A DNA stretch of 42,607 nucleotides from an uncultured Prevotellaceae bacterium (GTDB lineage: Bacteria; Bacteroidota; Bacteroidia; Bacteroidales; Bacteroidaceae). The first letter of the stretch is position 1. The number at the start of each line of letters is the position of its first letter. The notes beneath the pieces were generated by a model. It saw nothing but the letters and a program-made list of their open reading frames with translations, was not told the origin of the DNA and searched no databases. This document shows positions 9,845 through 19,401 of this stretch, in pieces. The stretch is taken from contig ONJJ01000028.1 in NCBI GenBank assembly GCA_900318115.1, positions 1 through 42,607 on the forward strand, given 5' to 3'. Made by a program: the position numbers and the translations under genes.

Positions 9845-10843
9845 TTAGAGCTTGTCGTTGGAGCCGAGGACGTCCACGATCTTGTGGATGTACATCTTCT
9901 TCATGTTCTCGCGAGCGGGCTTCAGATACTGGCGAGGATCGAAGTGGTCGGGGTGCTCAGCGAGATACTTGCGGATAGCGGCGGTCATAGCCAGACGGCT
10001 GTCGGAGTCGATGTTGATCTTGCAGACAGCGCTCTTGCTGGCCTCGCGCAGCTGCTCCTCGGGGATACCTACTGCATCGGGCAGCTTGCCGCCGTAGGCG
10101 TTGATTGTATCGACCTCGTCCTGAGGCACGGAGCTGGAGCCGTGGAGCACGATGGGGAAGCCGGGGAGCTTCTTCTCGATCTGGTGGAGGATGTCAAAGG
10201 CGAGGGGAGGAGGTACGAGCCTGCCGGTCTTCGGGTCGCGTGTGCACTGTTCGGGCTTGAACTTGTAAGCGCCGTGGCTGGTGCCGATGGAGATGGCGAG
10301 GCTGTCGCAACCGCTGCGGGTGGAGAAGTCGATAACCTCTTCGGGCTTCGTGTAGTGGCTGACCTCGGAGGCTACTTCGTCCTCAACGCCGGCGAGCACA
10401 CCCAGCTCTGCCTCGACGGTGACGTCGTGAGCGTGAGCGTATTCTACCACCTGCTTGGTGATGCGGATGTTCTCCTCGTAGGGGAGAGCGGAACCGTCGA
10501 ACATCACGCTGGAGAAACCATTGTCGATGCACTCCTTGCAGAGCTCGAAGCTATCGCCGTGGTCCAGGTGAAGCACGATCTGAGGATTGGGGCAGCCCAG
10601 TTCCTTGGCATATTCCACAGCACCCTGTGCCATGTAGCGGAGGATGGTGCCGTTGGCGTAGTTGCGAGCGCCCTTGCTGACCTGCATGATGACAGGAGAC
10701 TTGGTCTCCACAGCAGCCTGTACGATGGCCTGCATCTGTTCCATGGTGTTGAAGTTGAAGGCGGGGATGGCATAGCCACCGGCAACAGCCTTCTTGAACA
10801 TCTCGCGAGTGTTCACGAGACCCAGTTCTTTGTAACTTGTCAT
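9845..10843 (-). CDS. fba: Class II fructose-bisphosphate aldolase
   Basis: A 332-residue zinc-dependent aldolase that interconverts fructose-1,6-bisphosphate with glyceraldehyde-3-phosphate and dihydroxyacetone phosphate in glycolysis and gluconeogenesis. Class II motifs are present: PAFNFNTMEQM near 27, LHLDHGD at 91-97 (catalytic Asp94, zinc ligand His95), VEAELGVLAG at about 143, GTSHGAYK at 187-194 (zinc ligand His190), and VLHGSSS at 232-238 (zinc ligand His234). Length and sequence style match the Bacteroidales form. It ends 14 bases before a strong terminator and is probably monocistronic. The 79-base upstream gap is AT-rich, but I found no exact TAnnTTTG box there. Confidence 0.95.
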   Translation of the reverse strand: MTSYKELGLVNTREMFKKAVAGGYAIPAFNFNTMEQMQAIVQAAVETKSPVIMQVSKGARNYANGTILRYMAQGAVEYAKELGCPNPQIVLHLDHGDSFELCKECIDNGFSSVMFDGSALPYEENIRITKQVVEYAHAHDVTVEAELGVLAGVEDEVASEVSHYTKPEEVIDFSTRSGCDSLAISIGTSHGAYKFKPEQCTRDPKTGRLVPPPLAFDILHQIEKKLPGFPIVLHGSSSVPQDEVDTINAYGGKLPDAVGIPEEQLREASKSAVCKINIDSDSRLAMTAAIRKYLAEHPDHFDPRQYLKPARENMKKMYIHKIVDVLGSNDKL

Positions 10844-10922: not shown

Positions 10923-11975
10923 TCATCTTCTCTTGACGAAATAGGTGACGACGGGCAGGTGGTCTGAGTATCCGTCGAGCCAAACGCCTGCGGCGTGTGT
11001 GCGCTTGGGCGTTCCTTTGTATTTACCCTCGCTCTGGAGCAGGTAGGGGAAGCGCTGGATCTTGGCTTCGAAGAAAGTGAGGCTGTCGTAGTCCTTCTTG
11101 CCCTTGACGTCGAGGCAGTTGGGGGTCATCACAATTTGGTCGAAGAGGTTCCATCCGCCCTGATAGCTCAGGGTGCCGTGGCCGTCAAGCAGGATTTGCC
11201 ACCAGGGGTTGAACATCTGTCCCTCGGTGGCATCTTCGATCTTGCGGCGTGCCTTGAGGCACTTGGCCATGGAGGCGTCGAAGGGGTCGTCGTTCATATC
11301 GCCCATCACGAGAACCTTCATGGCAGGGTTGGCCTGGAGGATGCTGTCTTTCTCGGCACAGACCATCGTGCCGGCAGCCTCGCGAGCGGGGGAGGGAGAG
11401 AAGCGGCTGGGCCAGTGGCAGACGATGACGGTGATGCTGTCGCCACCCAGGGTGCCCTGCACGGTGAGGAAGCCACGCGTGGGACGGGTGATGTGCTCGT
11501 TGAGGATGTAGGGCTGCAGCCACATCTTTGCGGGCTGGAAGAAGCGCGGGTTATAGAGCAGTCCGCAGTCCACGCCTCGCTTGTCGGGACCCTCGATGTG
11601 GACAAACTTCATACCTCGGTCCGCCAGGGGCTGCTGGGCGCAGAGGTCGCTCAGGCAGTGGGCATTCTCCACCTCGCTGACACCGATGAGGGCGCAGCCT
11701 ATGCCCTTGAGGCGGTCGGTGCCCATATCGGCAAGGGCGCGAGCCATGTTGGAGAGCTTGTGCTCGTACTTCATCTGCGTCCAATGGTTCGTACCGTCGG
11801 GGAGGTACTCATAGTCGTTCTTGTCCTCGCCCGTGTTGGGGTCAAGGTCATGTTCCGTGTCGAAGAGGTTCTCGATGTTGTAGAAGCCGATGGCATAGAG
11901 ACCAAGCTTGCGGTCCTGGGCCACGGCAGTCGTTGCCAGGAAAATCAGCCACGAGAGAAGAATAGTCTTGCGCAT
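10923..11975 (-). CDS. Secreted endonuclease/exonuclease/phosphatase (EEP) family protein
   Basis: A 350-residue protein with an N-terminal signal peptide (cleavage near AVAQ, residue 20), then a complete EEP fold. Visible active-site motifs are FYNIENLFD (31-39, Asn33), GVSEVEN (98-104, metal-binding Glu), CHWPSR (186-191, His187), GDMNDDP (225-231, Asp and Asn) and the final YSDHLP with Asp338-His339. EEP enzymes cleave phosphodiester or phosphomonoester bonds in nucleic acids, nucleotides or lipids. The gene is divergent from a TonB-dependent receptor whose downstream genes include OB-fold lipoproteins and a DNA/RNA endonuclease. A role in breaking down extracellular nucleic acid in the periplasm or at the surface is therefore a reasonable inference. 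Each side has its own promoter box in the shared gap. Confidence 0.87.
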   Translation of the reverse strand: MRKTILLSWLIFLATTAVAQDRKLGLYAIGFYNIENLFDTEHDLDPNTGEDKNDYEYLPDGTNHWTQMKYEHKLSNMARALADMGTDRLKGIGCALIGVSEVENAHCLSDLCAQQPLADRGMKFVHIEGPDKRGVDCGLLYNPRFFQPAKMWLQPYILNEHITRPTRGFLTVQGTLGGDSITVIVCHWPSRFSPSPAREAAGTMVCAEKDSILQANPAMKVLVMGDMNDDPFDASMAKCLKARRKIEDATEGQMFNPWWQILLDGHGTLSYQGGWNLFDQIVMTPNCLDVKGKKDYDSLTFFEAKIQRFPYLLQSEGKYKGTPKRTHAAGVWLDGYSDHLPVVTYFVKRR

Positions 11976-12013
11976 AAGGCAGAATTTGGTGCTTATATGT
12001 ATGATTTCGGCCG

Positions 12014-12021
12014 CAAAGATA
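12014..12021 (-). promoter_or_regulatory. -7 box of the EEP nuclease gene
   Basis: TATCTTTG on the minus strand fits TAnnTTTG, 38 bases before the ATG at 11975. Confidence 0.6.
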
Positions 12022-12116
12022 CTCCTTTTTTGTTGAAAGGAAAATATAAAAGGCGAAAAAGTTGTCTCCGAACAAAAAAAAATGCAATTAAGTTGCTACA
12101 TTAAGATAATTTTGCA

Positions 12117-12124
12117 TACCTTTG
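12117..12124 (+). promoter_or_regulatory. -7 box of the TonB-dependent receptor operon
   Basis: TACCTTTG fits TAnnTTTG, 33 bases before the ATG at 12158, with a TTG at 12093-12095 as a possible -33 element. It supports the 12158 start over the ATG at 12122, which lies inside the box. Confidence 0.6.
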
Positions 12125-12157
12125 TGGCGAAAATCATACATTTTCTATTATCTACCA

Positions 12158-14722
12158 ATGAGAAAAAATCTTCTTTTGACGATTGCCACGCTGGCTTTAG
12201 CGCTGCACGGTTGGGCGCAGAAACCAGCCACTGGCGACACCCCTAAGACCGAGAGCGACGACGAGGCCGCTTTCGTGTTCGATGAGTCGGAGCTGGATGT
12301 GAACGAGGAGTCTGATGTCTCGCAGGACGTCATTCAAATCAGTTCCAGCAGCAATATGTACACCAGCAACATCAGCTACACCTTCAGTCCGATGTGGTTC
12401 AAGTTCCGTGCACTGGACCAGCGGTACAACGATACCTACATGAATGGTGTGCTGGTCAACAGCGCAGAAAGTGGTTCGTTCGGCTTCTCGCAGAGCATCG
12501 GCGGACTGAATGATGCCTACAACCGTTCGGGCGACTATTCTTCGCCCTTCGAGACGAACACCTACGGCCTGGCAGCCTTCGGCGGAAGCAATAACTATAA
12601 CTTCCGAGCCAGCAACTATGCAGCAGGCCACAAGATCACCCTCTCCGGTGCCAACCGCAACTACCGCGTGCGTGCCATTTACTCCTTCGGCACAGGGGTG
12701 AGCGAGAAGGGATGGTCATTCTTCGGAACCGTGGGCTACCGATGGGCCAACCAGGGATATGTCAAAGGAACCTTCTACAACTCATTGAGTTATTTCCTCA
12801 CCCTGCAGAAGATGTTCAACGACCGCCACAGCCTCAGCCTCAGCACCTGGGGAACGCCCACGGAGCGCGGACAGCAGGGCATCAGCACCGATGAGGCTTA
12901 CTGGCTCGCCAACGACTACCAGTACAACCCCTACTGGGGCTATCAGGATGGCAAGAAACGCAACTCGCGCGTGGTGAACACCTTCGAGCCGTCGGCCTTG
13001 CTCACCTGGGACTTCAAGATCAACGACAACCTGAAGCTCGTGACCTCCCTCTATGGCAAGTACGGCATGGACAGCCGTTCGCGTCTGCAGTACAACAACT
13101 CCCTGAATCCCAAACCCGACTACTGGAAGGCCTTCCCCAGCTACAACTACGATGTATGGGGCCTGACCGACGGCAGCAACAACGACCTCGCAGCCTGGCA
13201 AGACAGCTATGACTTCTGGACGGCAGCCGAAGAGAACAGGCAGATTCAGTGGGACAAGCTCTACTACGCCAATCAGCAGATGAACGCCGTGGGCGGCGAT
13301 GCTGCTTACTACATGCTCAAGCGCCACAGCGACCAGTTCGCCCTGCACCTCGGTTCCACCCTCAACTGGGACATCAATCCCCAAACGAAGTTCCAGGTGG
13401 GCGTCCAGCTGGCCTCGAACACGGGTAAGCACTATCAGACCGTCTCTGACATGATGGGAGCCGACAACCTCCACAATGTCAACAACTACGCCATCGGCAC
13501 TTACGCTGGCAGCGACCCCCGTGTGCAGTATGACCTGAACAATCCCGGAGGGGCTGTGGGCAAGGGCGACCGCTTCGGCTACGACTACAACATCGTAGTC
13601 CAGAAGGCTACAGCCTGGGCTCAGTTCACCAAGGACCAGGGTATCAGCCACAGCTTCATCAGTGCCAAGATCGGTGGCACCCAGATGTGGCGCGACGGCA
13701 AGATGCGCAACGGCCTCTTTGCCGACAACAGCTACGGCAAGAGCGGCACCGCCCGTTTCCTCGACGGCGGCTTCAAAATGGGCACAAACCTGAACTTCGG
13801 TAAAGGTCACGTCGTTGGCTTCGGCGTCAGCTACATGACCAACGCCCCCTACGCCTCCGGCTGGGGGACGGGAGCCTTCCAGGCACCTGAGATGAACAAC
13901 AATTTCGTCGATGGACTGAAGGTGGAGCACATGGCAGCTGCAGAACTCGGCTATGCGCTGACGCTCAGCTGGATGCGCGCCAACCTGACGGCTTACTATA
14001 TGCACGGCACTCGCCTCAACGAGTGGCAGAACTACTACTATGATGATGTCAACAGCTTCACCTACGTGAGCATGACGGGCGCCGAGAAGGACTACTACGG
14101 TGTCGAGCTCGGTATCAAATTCAAGGTCACTTCCGCTTTCAGTATCGATGTCCTCGGCTCCATCGGCGATGCCAAGTACACCAAGAACACGGACGTCAGC
14201 TACCTCCTCTCCACGGAAGGAACGGTCACCAAGGACGTCCTATATAATAAAGGTATGCGCGAGGCCGCCACGCCGCTCACGGTGGCTGGCGTCGCTCTGA
14301 ACTACAACGTGCGTGGCTGGTGGTTCACCCTCAAGGGTAACTACTACGACCGCATTTACCTCAGCTACGCTCCCTCGCTGCGCTACCAGAGCACGCTCAT
14401 CCGTTCTGGTGCTGTGGACAACGACGGCTCGCTCATCGTTCCCGAGCAGGCCAAGGGAAATGGCGGATTCATGCTCGACGGAAGCATCGGACACCAGTTC
14501 CGCATCGCTGGCCACCCGCTCAGCGTGAACCTCATGCTGACCAATATCCTCAACAACCGCAAGTTCGTCAACCGCGGTTGGGAACAGAGCCGAAGCAGCT
14601 ACACCACCGACCAGACTACGGGTGAGAAATCGACCATCCGCACCTACAACTTCCAGAAGAACCCGATGAAGTGCTACGTGCAAGGATTCAACTTCATGCT
14701 GAACCTCAACTACCGCTTCTGA
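12158..14722 (+). CDS. TonB-dependent outer-membrane receptor of a nuclease-linked locus
   Basis: An 854-residue outer-membrane protein with a signal peptide ending near GWAQ (residue 21). A short, strongly acidic segment follows at about 32-53, in place of the carboxypeptidase-like domain common in SusC proteins. The plug-like region follows (FKFRALDQRYNDTYMNGV at about 81-98). The rest is an alternating beta-strand pattern rich in Tyr, Trp, Asn and Gly, ending in the aromatic C-terminus NLNYRF typical of beta-barrels. It should move a ligand across the outer membrane using TonB energy. The downstream OB-fold lipoproteins and nucleases suggest nucleic-acid fragments or nucleotides as cargo; that is inference from context. 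It is the first gene of an operon with the DUF5689 gene, 51 bases downstream. Confidence 0.85.
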   Translation: MRKNLLLTIATLALALHGWAQKPATGDTPKTESDDEAAFVFDESELDVNEESDVSQDVIQISSSSNMYTSNISYTFSPMWFKFRALDQRYNDTYMNGVLVNSAESGSFGFSQSIGGLNDAYNRSGDYSSPFETNTYGLAAFGGSNNYNFRASNYAAGHKITLSGANRNYRVRAIYSFGTGVSEKGWSFFGTVGYRWANQGYVKGTFYNSLSYFLTLQKMFNDRHSLSLSTWGTPTERGQQGISTDEAYWLANDYQYNPYWGYQDGKKRNSRVVNTFEPSALLTWDFKINDNLKLVTSLYGKYGMDSRSRLQYNNSLNPKPDYWKAFPSYNYDVWGLTDGSNNDLAAWQDSYDFWTAAEENRQIQWDKLYYANQQMNAVGGDAAYYMLKRHSDQFALHLGSTLNWDINPQTKFQVGVQLASNTGKHYQTVSDMMGADNLHNVNNYAIGTYAGSDPRVQYDLNNPGGAVGKGDRFGYDYNIVVQKATAWAQFTKDQGISHSFISAKIGGTQMWRDGKMRNGLFADNSYGKSGTARFLDGGFKMGTNLNFGKGHVVGFGVSYMTNAPYASGWGTGAFQAPEMNNNFVDGLKVEHMAAAELGYALTLSWMRANLTAYYMHGTRLNEWQNYYYDDVNSFTYVSMTGAEKDYYGVELGIKFKVTSAFSIDVLGSIGDAKYTKNTDVSYLLSTEGTVTKDVLYNKGMREAATPLTVAGVALNYNVRGWWFTLKGNYYDRIYLSYAPSLRYQSTLIRSGAVDNDGSLIVPEQAKGNGGFMLDGSIGHQFRIAGHPLSVNLMLTNILNNRKFVNRGWEQSRSSYTTDQTTGEKSTIRTYNFQKNPMKCYVQGFNFMLNLNYRF

Positions 14723-14773
14723 ATCTTTCTTTCAACGAATAATACGAATCACACGAATATAAGTTCTATCTTT

Positions 14774-15637
14774 ATGAAACTACAGACAATATACAAAGGG
14801 TTGGCACTCATGACTTTGTTTTTGGCCCTGGCCTCTTGCATGGATAAAGAATGGGACACGCCAGATACCACACGTCCGGCCTATGGAAACAACTCCATCG
14901 AGGAAGTGGAAGCCAAACTGGTGACCATAGACCAACTGAAGACGACCTATGCCAGCGTCATCAATGCCAGCGGCTTCCAGCGCATCACCGATGACCTGCA
15001 ACTCAAGTGCACCGTTATCGGCAACGACATCGGCGGAAATATCTACAAGCAAATTTGCGTCCAGGATGCCACAGGTGCCATGATTGTCGGCATCAATGGA
15101 ACGGGACTTTTCCCCTTCCTTAGCGTGGGACAGCAAATCCTGATCAACCTGAAGGACCTCTGCATCGGCGGCTACGGTCAGCAGACACAGTTGGGCGACG
15201 AGTACAACGGAAGCATCGGCCGTATGTCCACCTCCAAATGGGAAGACCACGTGCGTATCCTGCCCAGCCACGACATGAGCCAGATCGACACCATCGACTT
15301 CTACAACGTGGCCAAGAGCGACATGGCACGCTACTGCGGACACCTCGTCTGCCTCAAGGACGTGCAAATCGGCGATGCCGACGGCACCACCACCCTTGCC
15401 CCGGAGTACACTTCCGGCACCACGCTGACCTACAACGGCAGCACCAACGGGTATGTGCACCACACCCTCAACGGCGAGTCCATGAACACCCTGCTGCTGC
15501 GAACCAGCACCTACGCAGACTTCGCAGCTCTCGTCATTCCTCAGAAACCTGTCACACTCTATGGCATCGCCACTCGCTACCGCAATACGTGGCAGATTCT
15601 GATCCGTGCGGAAGAGGACATTAAAATTGATAAATGA
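14774..15637 (+). CDS. DUF5689-type OB-fold lipoprotein
   Basis: A 287-residue lipoprotein (signal peptide with lipobox LASC, Cys22). After a short linker, residues about 50-170 resemble the DUF5689 domain (VTIDQLKTTY, KCTVIGNDIGGNIYKQICVQ, GAMIVGINGTGLF), a beta-rich OB-like fold common in Bacteroidetes lipoproteins encoded beside nucleases and TonB receptors. The C-terminal part holds a second beta-rich region (CGHLVCLKDVQIGDADG). OB folds often bind oligonucleotides or oligosaccharides, so it may capture substrate on the cell surface for the receptor encoded just before it. Its stop codon overlaps the start of the next gene by four bases, showing tight coupling. Function is inferred. Confidence 0.8.
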   Translation: MKLQTIYKGLALMTLFLALASCMDKEWDTPDTTRPAYGNNSIEEVEAKLVTIDQLKTTYASVINASGFQRITDDLQLKCTVIGNDIGGNIYKQICVQDATGAMIVGINGTGLFPFLSVGQQILINLKDLCIGGYGQQTQLGDEYNGSIGRMSTSKWEDHVRILPSHDMSQIDTIDFYNVAKSDMARYCGHLVCLKDVQIGDADGTTTLAPEYTSGTTLTYNGSTNGYVHHTLNGESMNTLLLRTSTYADFAALVIPQKPVTLYGIATRYRNTWQILIRAEEDIKIDK

Positions 15638-17958
15638 ATAAAAACAAATATACAATGAAGAAGTATTGGAAATTGCTGCTCATGGCAGCTGGTATCGGAA
15701 TCTTCACGGCCTGCGAGGACGTGCCCGAACCCTACAACATCCCGACGGAGGGAAATACACCATCCCTGCCCACGGCTGATTACATCATCAACCAAACGTT
15801 CACTTCCAGCCTGGGGGACTTCAAGAGCCAGGCTACCAGCGGCTCGCTCGCGTGGACTTCAGACACACGCTATGGTGCCATTATTTCAGGCTATCAGGAC
15901 TTTGATGGCGACGGCAACAAGGAGAACAAACCGGGCGAGACCTATCTCATCAGCCCTGAAATCGACCTCACCGAAGCCGACAGCGCTTACGTCATCATCG
16001 AGCAGGCCATCAACTACGCCAAGTCAACCCTGGCAGAGGATCACCACCTGCTCATTCGTGTGGGTGAAGGTGACTGGACGGAGCTTCCTATGAGCCTTGA
16101 TGGCCTCGGCACCTCCTTCACCTATCTCACCCAGAATATCCAGATTCCGGATGAGTTCATGGGCAAAAAGATCCAGCTTGCCCTGAAGCACACGGCCCAC
16201 AACGATTACTCCTCTACGTGGGAAGTGAAGAGCCTCAAGGTGGCCAAGGGAACGGCACCTGAAGCCAGCGTCATCGAAACGCCTGTCATCGAAGGCGTCG
16301 GTTCCGGCACAAAGGACGATCCCTATGATGTTCCCACCACCATCAAGCTCATTGCAGCCGGTCCTCCCTCCACGAAAATCTACACGAAGGGTATTGTATC
16401 GCAGGTCGATGAAATCAGCGACCAGTACGGCAATGCCACTTACTTCATCAGCAACGACGGCACCACCAAGGATCAACTGGAAGTCTATCGTGGCTTTGGT
16501 CTCGGTGGCGAGAAGTTCAAGGCCGGCGGTATCAAAGTCGGTGACGAGGTCATCGTCTATGGTCAGGTGGTCTATTACAACAACAAGACCATGGAGTTCA
16601 CTCAGGGCAGCGAACTTTACAGCCTCAATGGTGTGACTGCTGGCGGCAGCGATAATCCTGGCGAAGCCAAGGGCAGCGGTACGCTTGAAGATCCCTACAA
16701 CGGCGCTGCGGCTAATGCTATTGCAAGTGCGCTGGCTGCCGATGCACAGAGCGATGTGGTTTATATCAAAGGCAAGATTTCCAGCATCAAGGAAGAATTC
16801 TCTGCTCAGTACGGCAACGCCACATTCTACCTCTCTGATGATGGCACTTCAACGGGTCAGTTCTACATCTTCCGCAGCCTCTATCTCGGAAATAAGAAGT
16901 GGACAAATGGCGACACCCAGATTAAGGTGGGCGACGAAGTGGTCGTCTGTGCAAAGCTGACGAACTACAAGGGCAATACACCTGAGACAGTACAGGGCGA
17001 GACCTACCTCTACAGCCTTAATGGCAAGACAGAGGGCGGCGAAACTCCTGAGCCCACTCCTGGTGAAGCCAAGGGAAGCGGTACTCTGGAAGATCCCTTT
17101 AATTCCGTGGCTGCCAACAATATCGCCAGCGCCTTGGCTGCCGATGCAAAGAGTGAGCAGAGCTACTACATCAAGGGTAAGGTCGTCAGTGTGAAGGAGA
17201 GCTTCTCTGAGCAGTATGGCAACGCAACGTTCTACATCTCTGACGATGGCACCTCAGCTGGTCAGTTCTATGTGTTCCGTGCTCTCTATCTGGGCAACCA
17301 GAAATGGGTGAGCGGCAACCATCAGATTAAGGCTGGCGACGAAGTCGTGGTTTATGCTCAGCTGACGAACTACAAGGGCAATACTCCTGAAACCGTTCAG
17401 GGCGCAGCTTATATCTACAGCCTCAATGGCAAGACTGAAGACGACGGTACTGGCGGTGGCGAGGAACCTGGTCCCACACCCGGTGCTGATGGTACGACGC
17501 TTGCTCAGTTTACCAATGGTGGCTTCGAGGCTTGGACCAATGGAGTGCCTGATCAGTGGCAGTCCACGACTACTGCAAGTACCAAGAATACTATTTTCCA
17601 GAGCACGGATGCCCATTCCGGTTCCTACTCTGTACAGGTAGCAGGAACCACCAGTGGAAACAATCGTCTGGGTTCTACGGAGCTGGCGCTGGAAGCCGGT
17701 GAATACACCATGAAGTTCTTCGTGAAACCCGAAGCTGACGGTGGTAGCGTCCGTCCTGGATACGTGCCTGTCACGGATGGCAAGGTAGGAAGTTATGTCT
17801 ATGGTGACTACACCAATGATATTCCTGCGGGGCAGTGGACCGAGATTACCCACACGTTCTCTCTCAGTTCTGCTACCACAGTCAATCTCGTCATTATGAA
17901 TCCCAAGAAGCCTGGTAAGAACTTCCTCATTGATGACTTCACCATCACCAAGAACTAA
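15634..17958 (+). CDS. Lipoprotein with choice-of-anchor-J domain, three OB-like repeats and a C-terminal beta-sandwich
   Basis: A 774-residue lipoprotein (lipobox FTAC after the hydrophobic segment; an alternative start at 15655, MKKYWKLL, is equally credible). Domains in order are: about 45-215, a jelly-roll of the choice-of-anchor-J/DUF5017 type (YLISPEIDLTEADSAYVIIE); about 221-335, 344-470 and 478-603, three OB-like repeats each with a GSGTxxDPY start, YIKGKI/V strand and QYGNATFY(L/I)SDDG signature; a Gly/Pro linker; and about 625-774, a carbohydrate-binding-like beta-sandwich (NGGFEAWTNGVPDQWQS, FLIDDFTITKN). The OB repeats recall the domain found in extracellular nucleases such as B. 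subtilis YhcR, suggesting nucleic-acid binding. Repeats 2 and 3 are near duplicates. A strong terminator follows the stop. Confidence 0.83.
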   Translation: MNKNKYTMKKYWKLLLMAAGIGIFTACEDVPEPYNIPTEGNTPSLPTADYIINQTFTSSLGDFKSQATSGSLAWTSDTRYGAIISGYQDFDGDGNKENKPGETYLISPEIDLTEADSAYVIIEQAINYAKSTLAEDHHLLIRVGEGDWTELPMSLDGLGTSFTYLTQNIQIPDEFMGKKIQLALKHTAHNDYSSTWEVKSLKVAKGTAPEASVIETPVIEGVGSGTKDDPYDVPTTIKLIAAGPPSTKIYTKGIVSQVDEISDQYGNATYFISNDGTTKDQLEVYRGFGLGGEKFKAGGIKVGDEVIVYGQVVYYNNKTMEFTQGSELYSLNGVTAGGSDNPGEAKGSGTLEDPYNGAAANAIASALAADAQSDVVYIKGKISSIKEEFSAQYGNATFYLSDDGTSTGQFYIFRSLYLGNKKWTNGDTQIKVGDEVVVCAKLTNYKGNTPETVQGETYLYSLNGKTEGGETPEPTPGEAKGSGTLEDPFNSVAANNIASALAADAKSEQSYYIKGKVVSVKESFSEQYGNATFYISDDGTSAGQFYVFRALYLGNQKWVSGNHQIKAGDEVVVYAQLTNYKGNTPETVQGAAYIYSLNGKTEDDGTGGGEEPGPTPGADGTTLAQFTNGGFEAWTNGVPDQWQSTTTASTKNTIFQSTDAHSGSYSVQVAGTTSGNNRLGSTELALEAGEYTMKFFVKPEADGGSVRPGYVPVTDGKVGSYVYGDYTNDIPAGQWTEITHTFSLSSATTVNLVIMNPKKPGKNFLIDDFTITKN

Positions 17959-17978
17959 TTACTAACTGCTGCATGCAT

Positions 17979-18035
17979 CCGTCATCGTTGCGGCTTGCGC
18001 TAAGAAACCAAGCTGCAAGGATGACGGTTGTTTTT
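17979..18035 (+). terminator. Rho-independent terminator after the OB-repeat lipoprotein
   Basis: CCGTCATC...GGCTTG (17979-17997) pairs with the complementary stretch at 18009-18027, with one internal mismatch, and is followed by TTGTTTTT. It lies 47 bases upstream of the nuclease start, so the nuclease is either read by leakage through it or has its own promoter. Confidence 0.8.
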
Positions 18036-18093
18036 GCCCCGTTCCGTGCTCTGCAATCACGTTCCACTCATGCAGTTACTAATGAATCATGAT

Positions 18094-18978
18094 ATGTACA
18101 GACAAACACTGAAATCATTTCTCCTGCTCGCGGCGATGATGCCGCTGTGTTTTTGGAGCTGTTCTTCGGACGACGATGAACAAGATAGCCTGACGGCTAA
18201 TGCCAATGCCAATCTGGTAGCCGACGGCCCTGATGCGGCGCGCCTGGAAATACCCAAACTCAAAGGTGGAGTCGTGAATATGTTTCTTGTAAAGAAGCTC
18301 AGCACAGGCGAAGTCAATTTCTGCGTCGAATGGGATATCGCCAAGAAAGCGCAGCGATGGAGTGCCTTCCGGTGGGACAACACTAACAGTGGAGGCTACA
18401 TCAAGCGGGAGGACAACTTCATCGAAGACACTGACATCCCGCTCGAATACAGAACCACCTATGATCACTATCGCGGATCGGGCTATACCCGAGGTCACAT
18501 GTGTGCCAGTGCCGACCGCTGGAACTCCCTCGAGGCCAATCGCCAGACCTTCCTCTACAGCAATATGCAACCTCAGCTATATAGCTTCAATGGTGGCATC
18601 TGGGCCAACTTGGAAATGAAAGTACGCAGTTGGAACACGGCAGATTTCCGCGACACACTCTACGTCGCCCGCGGAGGCACCATAGACCACACTTCTGACC
18701 TCATCGAGATCACCAGCACGGGACTTCGAGTGCCCAAGTACTTCTTTATGGCCATCCTCTGCAAGAACAAGAGTGCTGTCAACGGCGGCTACAAAGCCAT
18801 CGGATTCTATATGGAACATCGTTCTTTCTACGAAGACGAGAAGAACCTGGCACCCTATGTGGTCAGTATCGATAACCTGGAGCGCCTGACGGGTATCGAC
18901 TTCTTCTGCAACCTGCCAGATGGCATCGAGAATCAGGTGGAAAGCAACGTGACACCAGCCGCCTGGGGCTTCCAATAA
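18094..18978 (+). CDS. DNA/RNA non-specific endonuclease lipoprotein (NUC1/NucA family)
   Basis: About 294 residues with a lipoprotein signal (lipobox CFWSC, Cys23) and an acidic Ser/Asp linker. The beta-beta-alpha-metal nuclease domain contains SGYTRGHMCASADRW (about 129-143, catalytic His125 in RGH when numbered from this start) and the downstream SNMQPQ (Asn157) and GIWANLE residues expected to hold the metal. This family cuts DNA and RNA without sequence preference. Being lipid-anchored and encoded beside OB-fold lipoproteins and a TonB receptor, it probably acts at the cell surface or outer membrane to fragment nucleic acids. Starts at 18082 or 18094 are both possible; I chose the one giving the most typical signal peptide. 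The more upstream ATG lies in the terminator tail. Confidence 0.9.
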   Translation: MYRQTLKSFLLLAAMMPLCFWSCSSDDDEQDSLTANANANLVADGPDAARLEIPKLKGGVVNMFLVKKLSTGEVNFCVEWDIAKKAQRWSAFRWDNTNSGGYIKREDNFIEDTDIPLEYRTTYDHYRGSGYTRGHMCASADRWNSLEANRQTFLYSNMQPQLYSFNGGIWANLEMKVRSWNTADFRDTLYVARGGTIDHTSDLIEITSTGLRVPKYFFMAILCKNKSAVNGGYKAIGFYMEHRSFYEDEKNLAPYVVSIDNLERLTGIDFFCNLPDGIENQVESNVTPAAWGFQ

Positions 18979-19149: not shown

Positions 19150-19401
19150 ATGAAAAAAGGTATTCATCCCGAGAACTATCGTCCTGTTGTCTTCAAGGAT
19201 ATGAGCAATGGCGACATGTTCCTCAGCCGCTCCACTGCCAAGACCACTGAGACCGTGGAATTCGAAGGCGAGACTTATCCCGTTGTGAAGCTGGAAATCT
19301 CCAGCAGCTCACACCCCTTCTACACTGGTAAGAGCAAGCTCGTTGACACCGCTGGTCGTGTTGACAAGTTCATGAGCCGCTATGCTCGCAGCCGCAAGTA
19401 A
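19150..19401 (+). CDS. rpmE: 50S ribosomal protein L31, type B
   Basis: An 83-residue protein with the type B L31 pattern: [18 protein letters not shown] at the N-terminus, then [20 protein letters not shown] and a basic end. It lacks the CxxC zinc ligands of type A L31. The protein sits at the central protuberance of the large ribosomal subunit and bridges to the small subunit. It is monocistronic, with its own promoter, a structured leader and a strong terminator. Confidence 0.95.

Follow-up and report, generated by a model that had tools for sequence, protein, structure and literature searches.

A candidate outer-membrane DNA-import locus in an uncultured Prevotellaceae bacterium, with orthologues of a Riemerella transformation gene pair

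Five genes encoding secreted or outer-membrane proteins lie together between positions 10923 and 18978 of contig ONJJ01000028.1 (assembly GCA_900318115.1), which comes from an uncultured Prevotellaceae bacterium and was analyzed over its whole length of 42,607 nucleotides, here referred to as the window. In order, the genes encode an EEP (DNase I-like) nuclease, a TonB-receptor-like protein, a DUF5689 lipoprotein, a lipoprotein with three OB repeats, and a lipid-anchored endonuclease. All five open reading frames (ORFs) are present as given in a preliminary description of this DNA, with the EEP gene divergent from the other four. We propose that the locus is probably the outer-membrane part of a machine for DNA import, that it is orthologous to a gene pair needed for natural transformation in Riemerella anatipestifer, and that it likely serves transformation here as well. 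This keeps the part of the preliminary description that saw an outer-membrane system acting on extracellular nucleic acid, for which the Riemerella orthology, the nucleases, and the OB repeats speak, and abandons its analogy to a polysaccharide utilization locus (PUL).

Genes and domains of the locus

The EEP nuclease gene occupies positions 10923 to 11975 on the reverse strand. Its product has, as judged from the sequence, an ordinary N-terminal signal peptide, matches PF19580 (E 3.1e-83), and has no close relative by sequence in the PDB; all 50 aligned sequences, that of the window included, share N33, E35, E101, H187, D226, N228, D338, and H339. At the other end of the locus, the endonuclease gene (18028 to 18978, forward strand; real start probably ATG 18082 or 18094) encodes an Endonuclease_NS protein (PF01223, E 3.5e-46) related by sequence to EXOG, EndoG, and other NS nucleases in the PDB. 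Here, R155, G156, H157, N179, N188, and E196 are invariant in all 15 aligned sequences, again counting the window. We take the invariant positions of both enzymes to be catalytic-type residues. The endonuclease lipobox, identified by eye, reads ...CFWSC and is followed by SSDDDE, and in the DUF5689 and OB-repeat proteins, too, acidic residues follow the lipobox as read from the sequences, a feature that in Bacteroidota often marks surface export. The assignments of an EEP nuclease and of a lipid-anchored endonuclease made in the preliminary description are thus upheld.

The region between the EEP and receptor genes (11976 to 12154) is presumed, from the divergent layout, to hold divergent promoters; a promoter scan found no sigma-70-like site within it, and 3 sites overall versus 6.0 in shuffled sequences. 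The receptor ORF opens with a TTG at 12122, and we prefer the ATG at 12155 as the start (12155 to 14722, forward strand). Its product has no Pfam match even at E 10, nor does it match either of the two CarboxypepD_reg models that are found in 18 and 17 of 40 family members. Pfam recognizes a plug domain in 6 of 40 relatives and a barrel in 1 of 40, and comparison with PDB profiles gave weak matches to OprC (0.003) and BauA (0.11). Described earlier as a TonB-dependent receptor, the protein is therefore probably a divergent TonB-receptor-like outer-membrane barrel, a reading that comes from its relatives and from the profile matches, although the window protein itself carries no Pfam signature. 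No relative of the receptor was found in viral contigs.

The third gene (14774 to 15637, forward strand) encodes the DUF5689 lipoprotein, with lipobox ...LASC and matches to PF18942 (E 4.6e-60) and to NF052645 (E 1.6e-25, below the cut-off of that model). Its designation as a DUF5689 lipoprotein stands, but the OB fold that had been ascribed to it found no support: profile comparison with the OB repeats encoded next door was negative, and a fold model from the single sequence was useless (pLDDT 32).

The overlapping fourth gene (15634 to 17958, forward strand; the start is maybe ATG 15655) encodes the OB-repeat lipoprotein, in which PF01336 is matched at E 3.8e-11 and three OB-fold stretches are recognized at a relaxed cut-off. 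The repeats (16294 to 16647, 16663 to 17040, and 17065 to 17445) are 44 to 76% identical to each other, the first sharing 44 to 46% identity with the other two and the third 76% with the second, which contains the best stretch (residues 376 to 449). No close PDB relative of an OB repeat was found by sequence; a low-confidence model of repeat 3 (pLDDT 54.5) gave Foldseek matches of which those listed were mostly OB-looking, none of them below E 1e-3. The lipoprotein with three OB-like repeats of the preliminary description is thus confirmed and gains further domains at both ends. A CBM_4_9 domain (17506 to 17895; PF02018, E 3.3e-8, scoring above the cut-off) follows the repeats. Preceding them, a choice-of-anchor-J-like domain (15751 to 16245) aligns with the C-terminal part of flavobacterial-type DUF5689 proteins (hhalign probability 98.5, E 1.6e-15) and, in direct comparison with NCBIfam, matches NF038128 at E 6.9e-5, below the cut-off. 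The Riemerella DUF5689 protein ends in a choice-of-anchor-J domain, and in the window the domain lies on the overlapping next gene. Since it starts that gene, the window appears to hold a split version of the Riemerella protein, extended by three OB repeats and CBM_4_9. The number of repeats and the N-terminal domain of the OB lipoprotein vary strongly between congeners, which suggests fast evolution at the cell surface.

Orthology to the Riemerella transformation pair

In the open-licence literature searched, DUF5689 is named in only one paper, a transposon screen for natural transformation in R. anatipestifer (PMC8459023). According to the accessible text of that paper, markerless deletion of either RA0C_RS04915 or RA0C_RS04920 yielded no transformants, versus 5.4e-5 for the wild type. 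The two genes are adjacent, the former encoding a CarboxypepD_reg protein predicted to form an outer-membrane barrel and the latter a DUF5689 protein with a second domain. In the model proposed there, RA0C_RS04920 binds the DNA and RA0C_RS04915 transports it over the outer membrane; no enzyme was assigned to the conversion into single-stranded DNA (PMC8459023).

We located the Riemerella locus via a published comEC primer, which matched R. anatipestifer strain CCUG25054. Gene order in this strain is recA, four genes (dinB and sdh genes, by eye), comEC, a gene for a 145-aa protein, a carboxylase gene (likewise by eye), EEP on the reverse strand, and then the receptor and DUF5689 genes on the forward strand. 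Counting tags by fives from recA (RS04870) places comEC at RS04895, as published, EEP at RS04910, the receptor at RS04915, and DUF5689 at RS04920; because CCUG25054 differs from the strain used in PMC8459023, the RA0C tags are assigned by order. Window and Riemerella proteins match each other at E 2e-49 (EEP), 9e-69 (receptor, phmmer), and 6e-17 (DUF5689). A profile built from 40 receptors gives one full-strength match per genome, at 1134 bits in that of the window (runner-up, 43) and at 1065 bits in that of Riemerella (runner-up, 165), and a tree of 66 family members and six paralogues sets the receptor family apart with a support of 0.97. Judged from sequence comparison, the window receptor is the orthologue of RA0C_RS04915, and the DUF5689 lipoprotein is that of the N-terminal part of RA0C_RS04920.

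Riemerella has, downstream of its module, an ORF of 1400 aa (L085:15211-19413) that by eye resembles Cas9.

Distribution across the phylum and within the genus

The sample from the phylum, presumably Bacteroidota, comprised 296 genomes, including that of the window. Receptors were assigned to the family at 809 bits or more, or from two pieces of 532 and 479 bits in G262, the next best score being 290. By this measure, the family is present in 46 of the 296 genomes, 27 of which were not used for building the receptor profile. DUF5689 at E <1e-32 occurs in exactly the same 46 genomes (the next genome reaches 3e-20) and is found directly downstream of the receptor on the same strand in 45 of them, the two genes being on separate contigs in G057. 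In G262 (L080, G262:C19:394500-414499), the receptor gene is broken by stops and DUF5689 is intact.

The first loci from the phylum were chosen mainly by high DUF5689 score, which introduces a bias; the set was subsequently completed with the 26 receptor loci still outstanding among the 46 genomes. Among the 45 loci fetched, 44 hold the receptor. EEP adjoins it in 28 of these, divergently in 26 (with gaps of 27 to 253 bp) and on the same strand in 2, and one further locus ends at a contig edge. Counted by genus over 51 loci from 26 genera outside that of the window, the receptor is present in 26, DUF5689 in 25, EEP in 21, and a protein of ~146 aa in 8, so that EEP is the sole family besides the receptor and DUF5689 to be found in more than 8 genera. 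Six further families, with 4 genera each, also occur near the module when families in at least 4 genera are counted; by the Pfam matches of their representatives, they are phosphoglucose isomerase, PAS-type sensor kinases, an ABC transporter family, a GTPase, and a penicillin-binding protein, with one having no match. Because the loci were chosen by receptor or DUF5689, the informative results here are limited to how often EEP occurs and to the absence of other common genes. A synteny survey had been proposed in the preliminary description, and the EEP-receptor-DUF5689 arrangement proved to be conserved well outside the genus. The lipid-anchored endonuclease, by comparison, adjoins the module outside the genus only in genus g18 (2 loci).

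At three loci (L064:642-3822, L074:2245-5456, and L107:2190-5381), a paralogue of the receptor followed by the ~146-aa protein, which has no Pfam assignment, lies near the module. The paralogue at L064, the one scanned, has plug and barrel matches.

A lipid-anchored endonuclease and an EEP nuclease with a signal peptide would also suit the turnover of extracellular DNA at the surface, in biofilms or for defense, with no import at all. Such turnover would explain neither why a receptor is conserved next to the nuclease nor the Riemerella phenotype, and we regard it as highly improbable.

For the window's genus, where genomes are 61 to 92% complete and counts ignore kinship, the receptor was found in 20 of 25 genomes (own included). 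The EEP orthologue accompanies it in 20 of 20 receptor-positive genomes and in none of the five receptor-negative ones, four of which keep only an EEP paralogue of ~35% identity and one of which has no match. The module occupies a slot between a class II aldolase gene (9845 to 10843, reverse strand; PF01116 and NF005481) and a small gene (19150 to 19401, forward strand) whose product is presumably a ribosomal protein of the L31 type; both flanking genes are outside the system. This slot is empty in two module-less congeners (G006 and G022), where the aldolase gene adjoins the L31-type gene at a distance of ~300 to 380 bp. Two others (G012 and G024) have the aldolase gene without the module alongside, and in G010 the aldolase gene was not found; a clean empty site is thus seen in two of the four module-less congeners in which the aldolase was found.

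The slot region was fetched for 16 of the 19 other module-positive congeners. The OB lipoprotein is present in all 16 and the anchored endonuclease in 12, with one of the four lacking it interrupted near a contig edge, and in 5 of these 12 the genes for the OB lipoprotein and the endonuclease are separated by the L31-type gene. On account of this patchier presence and of the intervening gene, the endonuclease is the looser part of the system. In G011 (L058, G011:C1:232000-251999), the aldolase/L31 slot is the same, but the block running from the endonuclease through OB and DUF5689 to the receptor is in reverse orientation.

Competence genes and alternative explanations

The genome from which the window derives also encodes DprA (383-aa frame), ComEC (635-aa frame), and a helix-hairpin-helix (HhH) protein of 371 aa that has an apparent membrane anchor and is weakly similar to one from Riemerella. 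All 74 genomes of a set from the class gave matches to comEC and dprA (46 carrying the module, 27 module-less ones among those listed, and Riemerella), so their co-occurrence with the module is nondiscriminating.

Several observations weigh against a function in transformation alone. Both comEC and dprA are present in all 27 module-less genomes among those listed and are therefore independent of the module. Among 41 relatives, a comEC match was obtained in all 15 receptor-negative genomes but in only 23 of the 26 receptor-positive ones; the three exceptions are G002 (76% complete), G020 (62%), and G026 (99%), the last with EEP, receptor, and DUF5689 intact (L061). The gene is interrupted by two TGA codons in G015 (L045) and by one TGA inside the match in G032, and the match is partial in G036, the assembly of which is fragmented. 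In G155 (2.0 Mb), dprA is fragmented and comEC is cut to 414 aa (L112, G155:C3:47000-51000; L113, G155:C1:160500-164500), and the module is intact (L069). Given that the genomes are mostly drafts, assembly faults are possible in these comEC gaps. ComEC in the genus is often short, with or without the module, at 344 to 463 aa versus 580 to 634 aa in the window's clade, and the short form covers little more than the channel domain (L149 to L166). Conserved linkage of the module to comEC was not found: of the 22 genomes that have both on one contig, 3 place them no more than 30 kb apart. An adjoining EEP gene is lacking at 15 of the 44 receptor loci, 13 of which belong to genus g23, and also at that of G057, so the nuclease is not obligatory.

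The published record, as far as the text is accessible, adds two points of the same kind. M949_1556, from the same Riemerella gene family, has been linked to antigenicity and pathogenicity, so the effect on uptake could be indirect. All homologues are reported from F. johnsoniae, yet this species was not transformable as tested. In favor of import, tonBA and tonBB mutants of R. anatipestifer showed lower transformation, which fits an energized receptor, although the authors attribute the tonBB effect to iron.

Co-occurrence of competence genes was accordingly rejected as support for the proposed function, comEC being, in the 41 relatives, if anything less complete where the module is present. 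Decay of ComEC in module-less congeners was also considered and rejected: the frame is open in five of five, and short forms occur in many module-positive species as well.

Because some module-bearing genomes are without an intact comEC (G155, where dprA is also affected, G026, G015, and G032), we retain a second explanation, that of the preliminary description, in which the same machine captures extracellular DNA or RNA chiefly as food. It would yield phosphate, nucleosides, or carbon once degraded by nucleases at the surface and in the periplasm. The window's genus has two nucleases of unrelated families, one of them lipid-anchored, and an ExeM N-terminus-like part was found in the DUF5689 protein of 2 of 10 relatives scanned. 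Bacteroidota are also described, in the accessible part of PMC8289736, as active DNA degraders in sediments. Set against these points, the Riemerella pair is essential for transformation (PMC8459023, accessible text), and the neighbor families in at least 4 of 26 genera include no SusD, nuclease, or phosphatase by Pfam matches of their representatives (the ~146-aa family being unassigned). The restriction of the anchored endonuclease to g18 outside the genus also speaks against feeding, and no result points to it directly. Feeding as the main function thus seems unlikely to us. The evidence is stronger for import as such than for what then happens to the DNA, and use as food and transformation may coexist.

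A third explanation is a role in surface integrity or antigenicity, in which the receptor and lipoprotein handle a glycan, a peptide, or an envelope component and the loss of transformation is indirect. It draws on the reported link of the M949_1556 family to antigenicity and pathogenicity, on the failure of comEC and dprA to track the module, and on the CBM_4_9 and choice-of-anchor-J-like domains of the OB lipoprotein, both of which may bind glycans. It does not account for a conserved nuclease as a third member that is absent wherever the receptor is absent in the genus, or for the OB repeats and endonuclease added there. Moreover, in the accessible text of PMC8459023, both Riemerella deletions fell below detection and were not merely reduced. 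We consider this explanation quite improbable.

Proposed mechanism and implications

Under DNA import for transformation, the explanation we prefer, the DUF5689 and OB-repeat lipoproteins would hold extracellular DNA at the cell surface, and the TonB-receptor-like barrel would pass it through the outer membrane. The EEP nuclease, together with the anchored endonuclease where present, may cut or strip the DNA or make it single-stranded. In the periplasm, a ComEA-like HhH protein would receive the DNA, and ComEC and DprA would then take it on.

A wider proposal, which we advance tentatively and with less than even confidence, is that Bacteroidota use a dedicated translocon of the TonB-receptor type, consisting of the barrel and DUF5689, instead of a type IV pilus and secretin, that EEP is the missing enzyme that converts duplex to single strands, and that the window holds an extended form of this system. 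Competence of Porphyromonas gingivalis needs ComEA and ComEC, and for naturally transformable species of the phylum, P. gingivalis included, the outer-membrane step of DNA entry is described as unclear (PMC11532111, accessible text).

The analysis ties two essential outer-membrane candidates of a duck pathogen to a module present in 46 of 296 sampled genomes. Natural pairs of genomes with and without the module are usable for tests and provide a route to testing outer-membrane DNA passage in this group. If the proposal is correct, an ability to import DNA may be more widespread among Bacteroidales, the presumed order of the window organism, than has been assumed.

Comparison with known systems

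The locus resembles a PUL of the SusC/SusD type in combining an outer-membrane receptor, surface lipoproteins, and a degradative enzyme, and the preliminary description held that its layout mirrors such a locus. That analogy fails on SusD, which is matched by none of the five proteins (Pfam, E 0.01). There is no glycosidase either, nucleases being present instead; the receptor belongs to a divergent family, the window member having no Pfam match, and there is one CBM_4_9 binding domain. We therefore reject membership in the PUL family.

Like ExeM, the system combines an EEP domain with OB or other binding parts; Xds is another extracellular nuclease of this OB/EEP kind. Unlike the ExeM type, it has the binding and EEP parts on separate polypeptides, together with a receptor and DUF5689. 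The competence nuclease of the EndA type is a surface nonspecific endonuclease beside a DNA-uptake system. The anchored endonuclease of the window (PF01223) is likewise a surface endonuclease beside a candidate uptake system, and it may act in uptake.

The closest counterpart is the Riemerella pair, and to that extent the claim of the preliminary description that no characterized example exists does not hold for the receptor and DUF5689; for the five-gene set, none was found in the open-licence literature. The pair is already known in one flavobacterium, and a 2021 survey, in its accessible text, gives receptor homologues only in Flavobacteriaceae. New here, as far as orthologues recognized by sequence can tell, is the occurrence of the pair beyond Flavobacteriaceae, in what kinship labels indicate to be a different order within the class (presumably Bacteroidales). 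New as well are EEP as a co-varying third member, the split and extended form, and clean presence or absence in a fixed slot; our search of the same literature found no paper on any of these points. The Riemerella EEP gene is present in the DNA and is not named among the transformation genes in the accessible text of PMC8459023. The Prevotellaceae locus differs from its Riemerella counterpart in four ways: the choice-of-anchor-J-like domain is encoded by the following gene, no CarboxypepD_reg match is obtained for the receptor, an OB lipoprotein and an anchored endonuclease are added, and comEC lies on another contig. The likeness, known here from genes alone, consists of an orthologous receptor, DUF5689 directly downstream on the same strand, a divergent EEP gene adjoining them, and a genome that also encodes ComEC, DprA, and an HhH protein.

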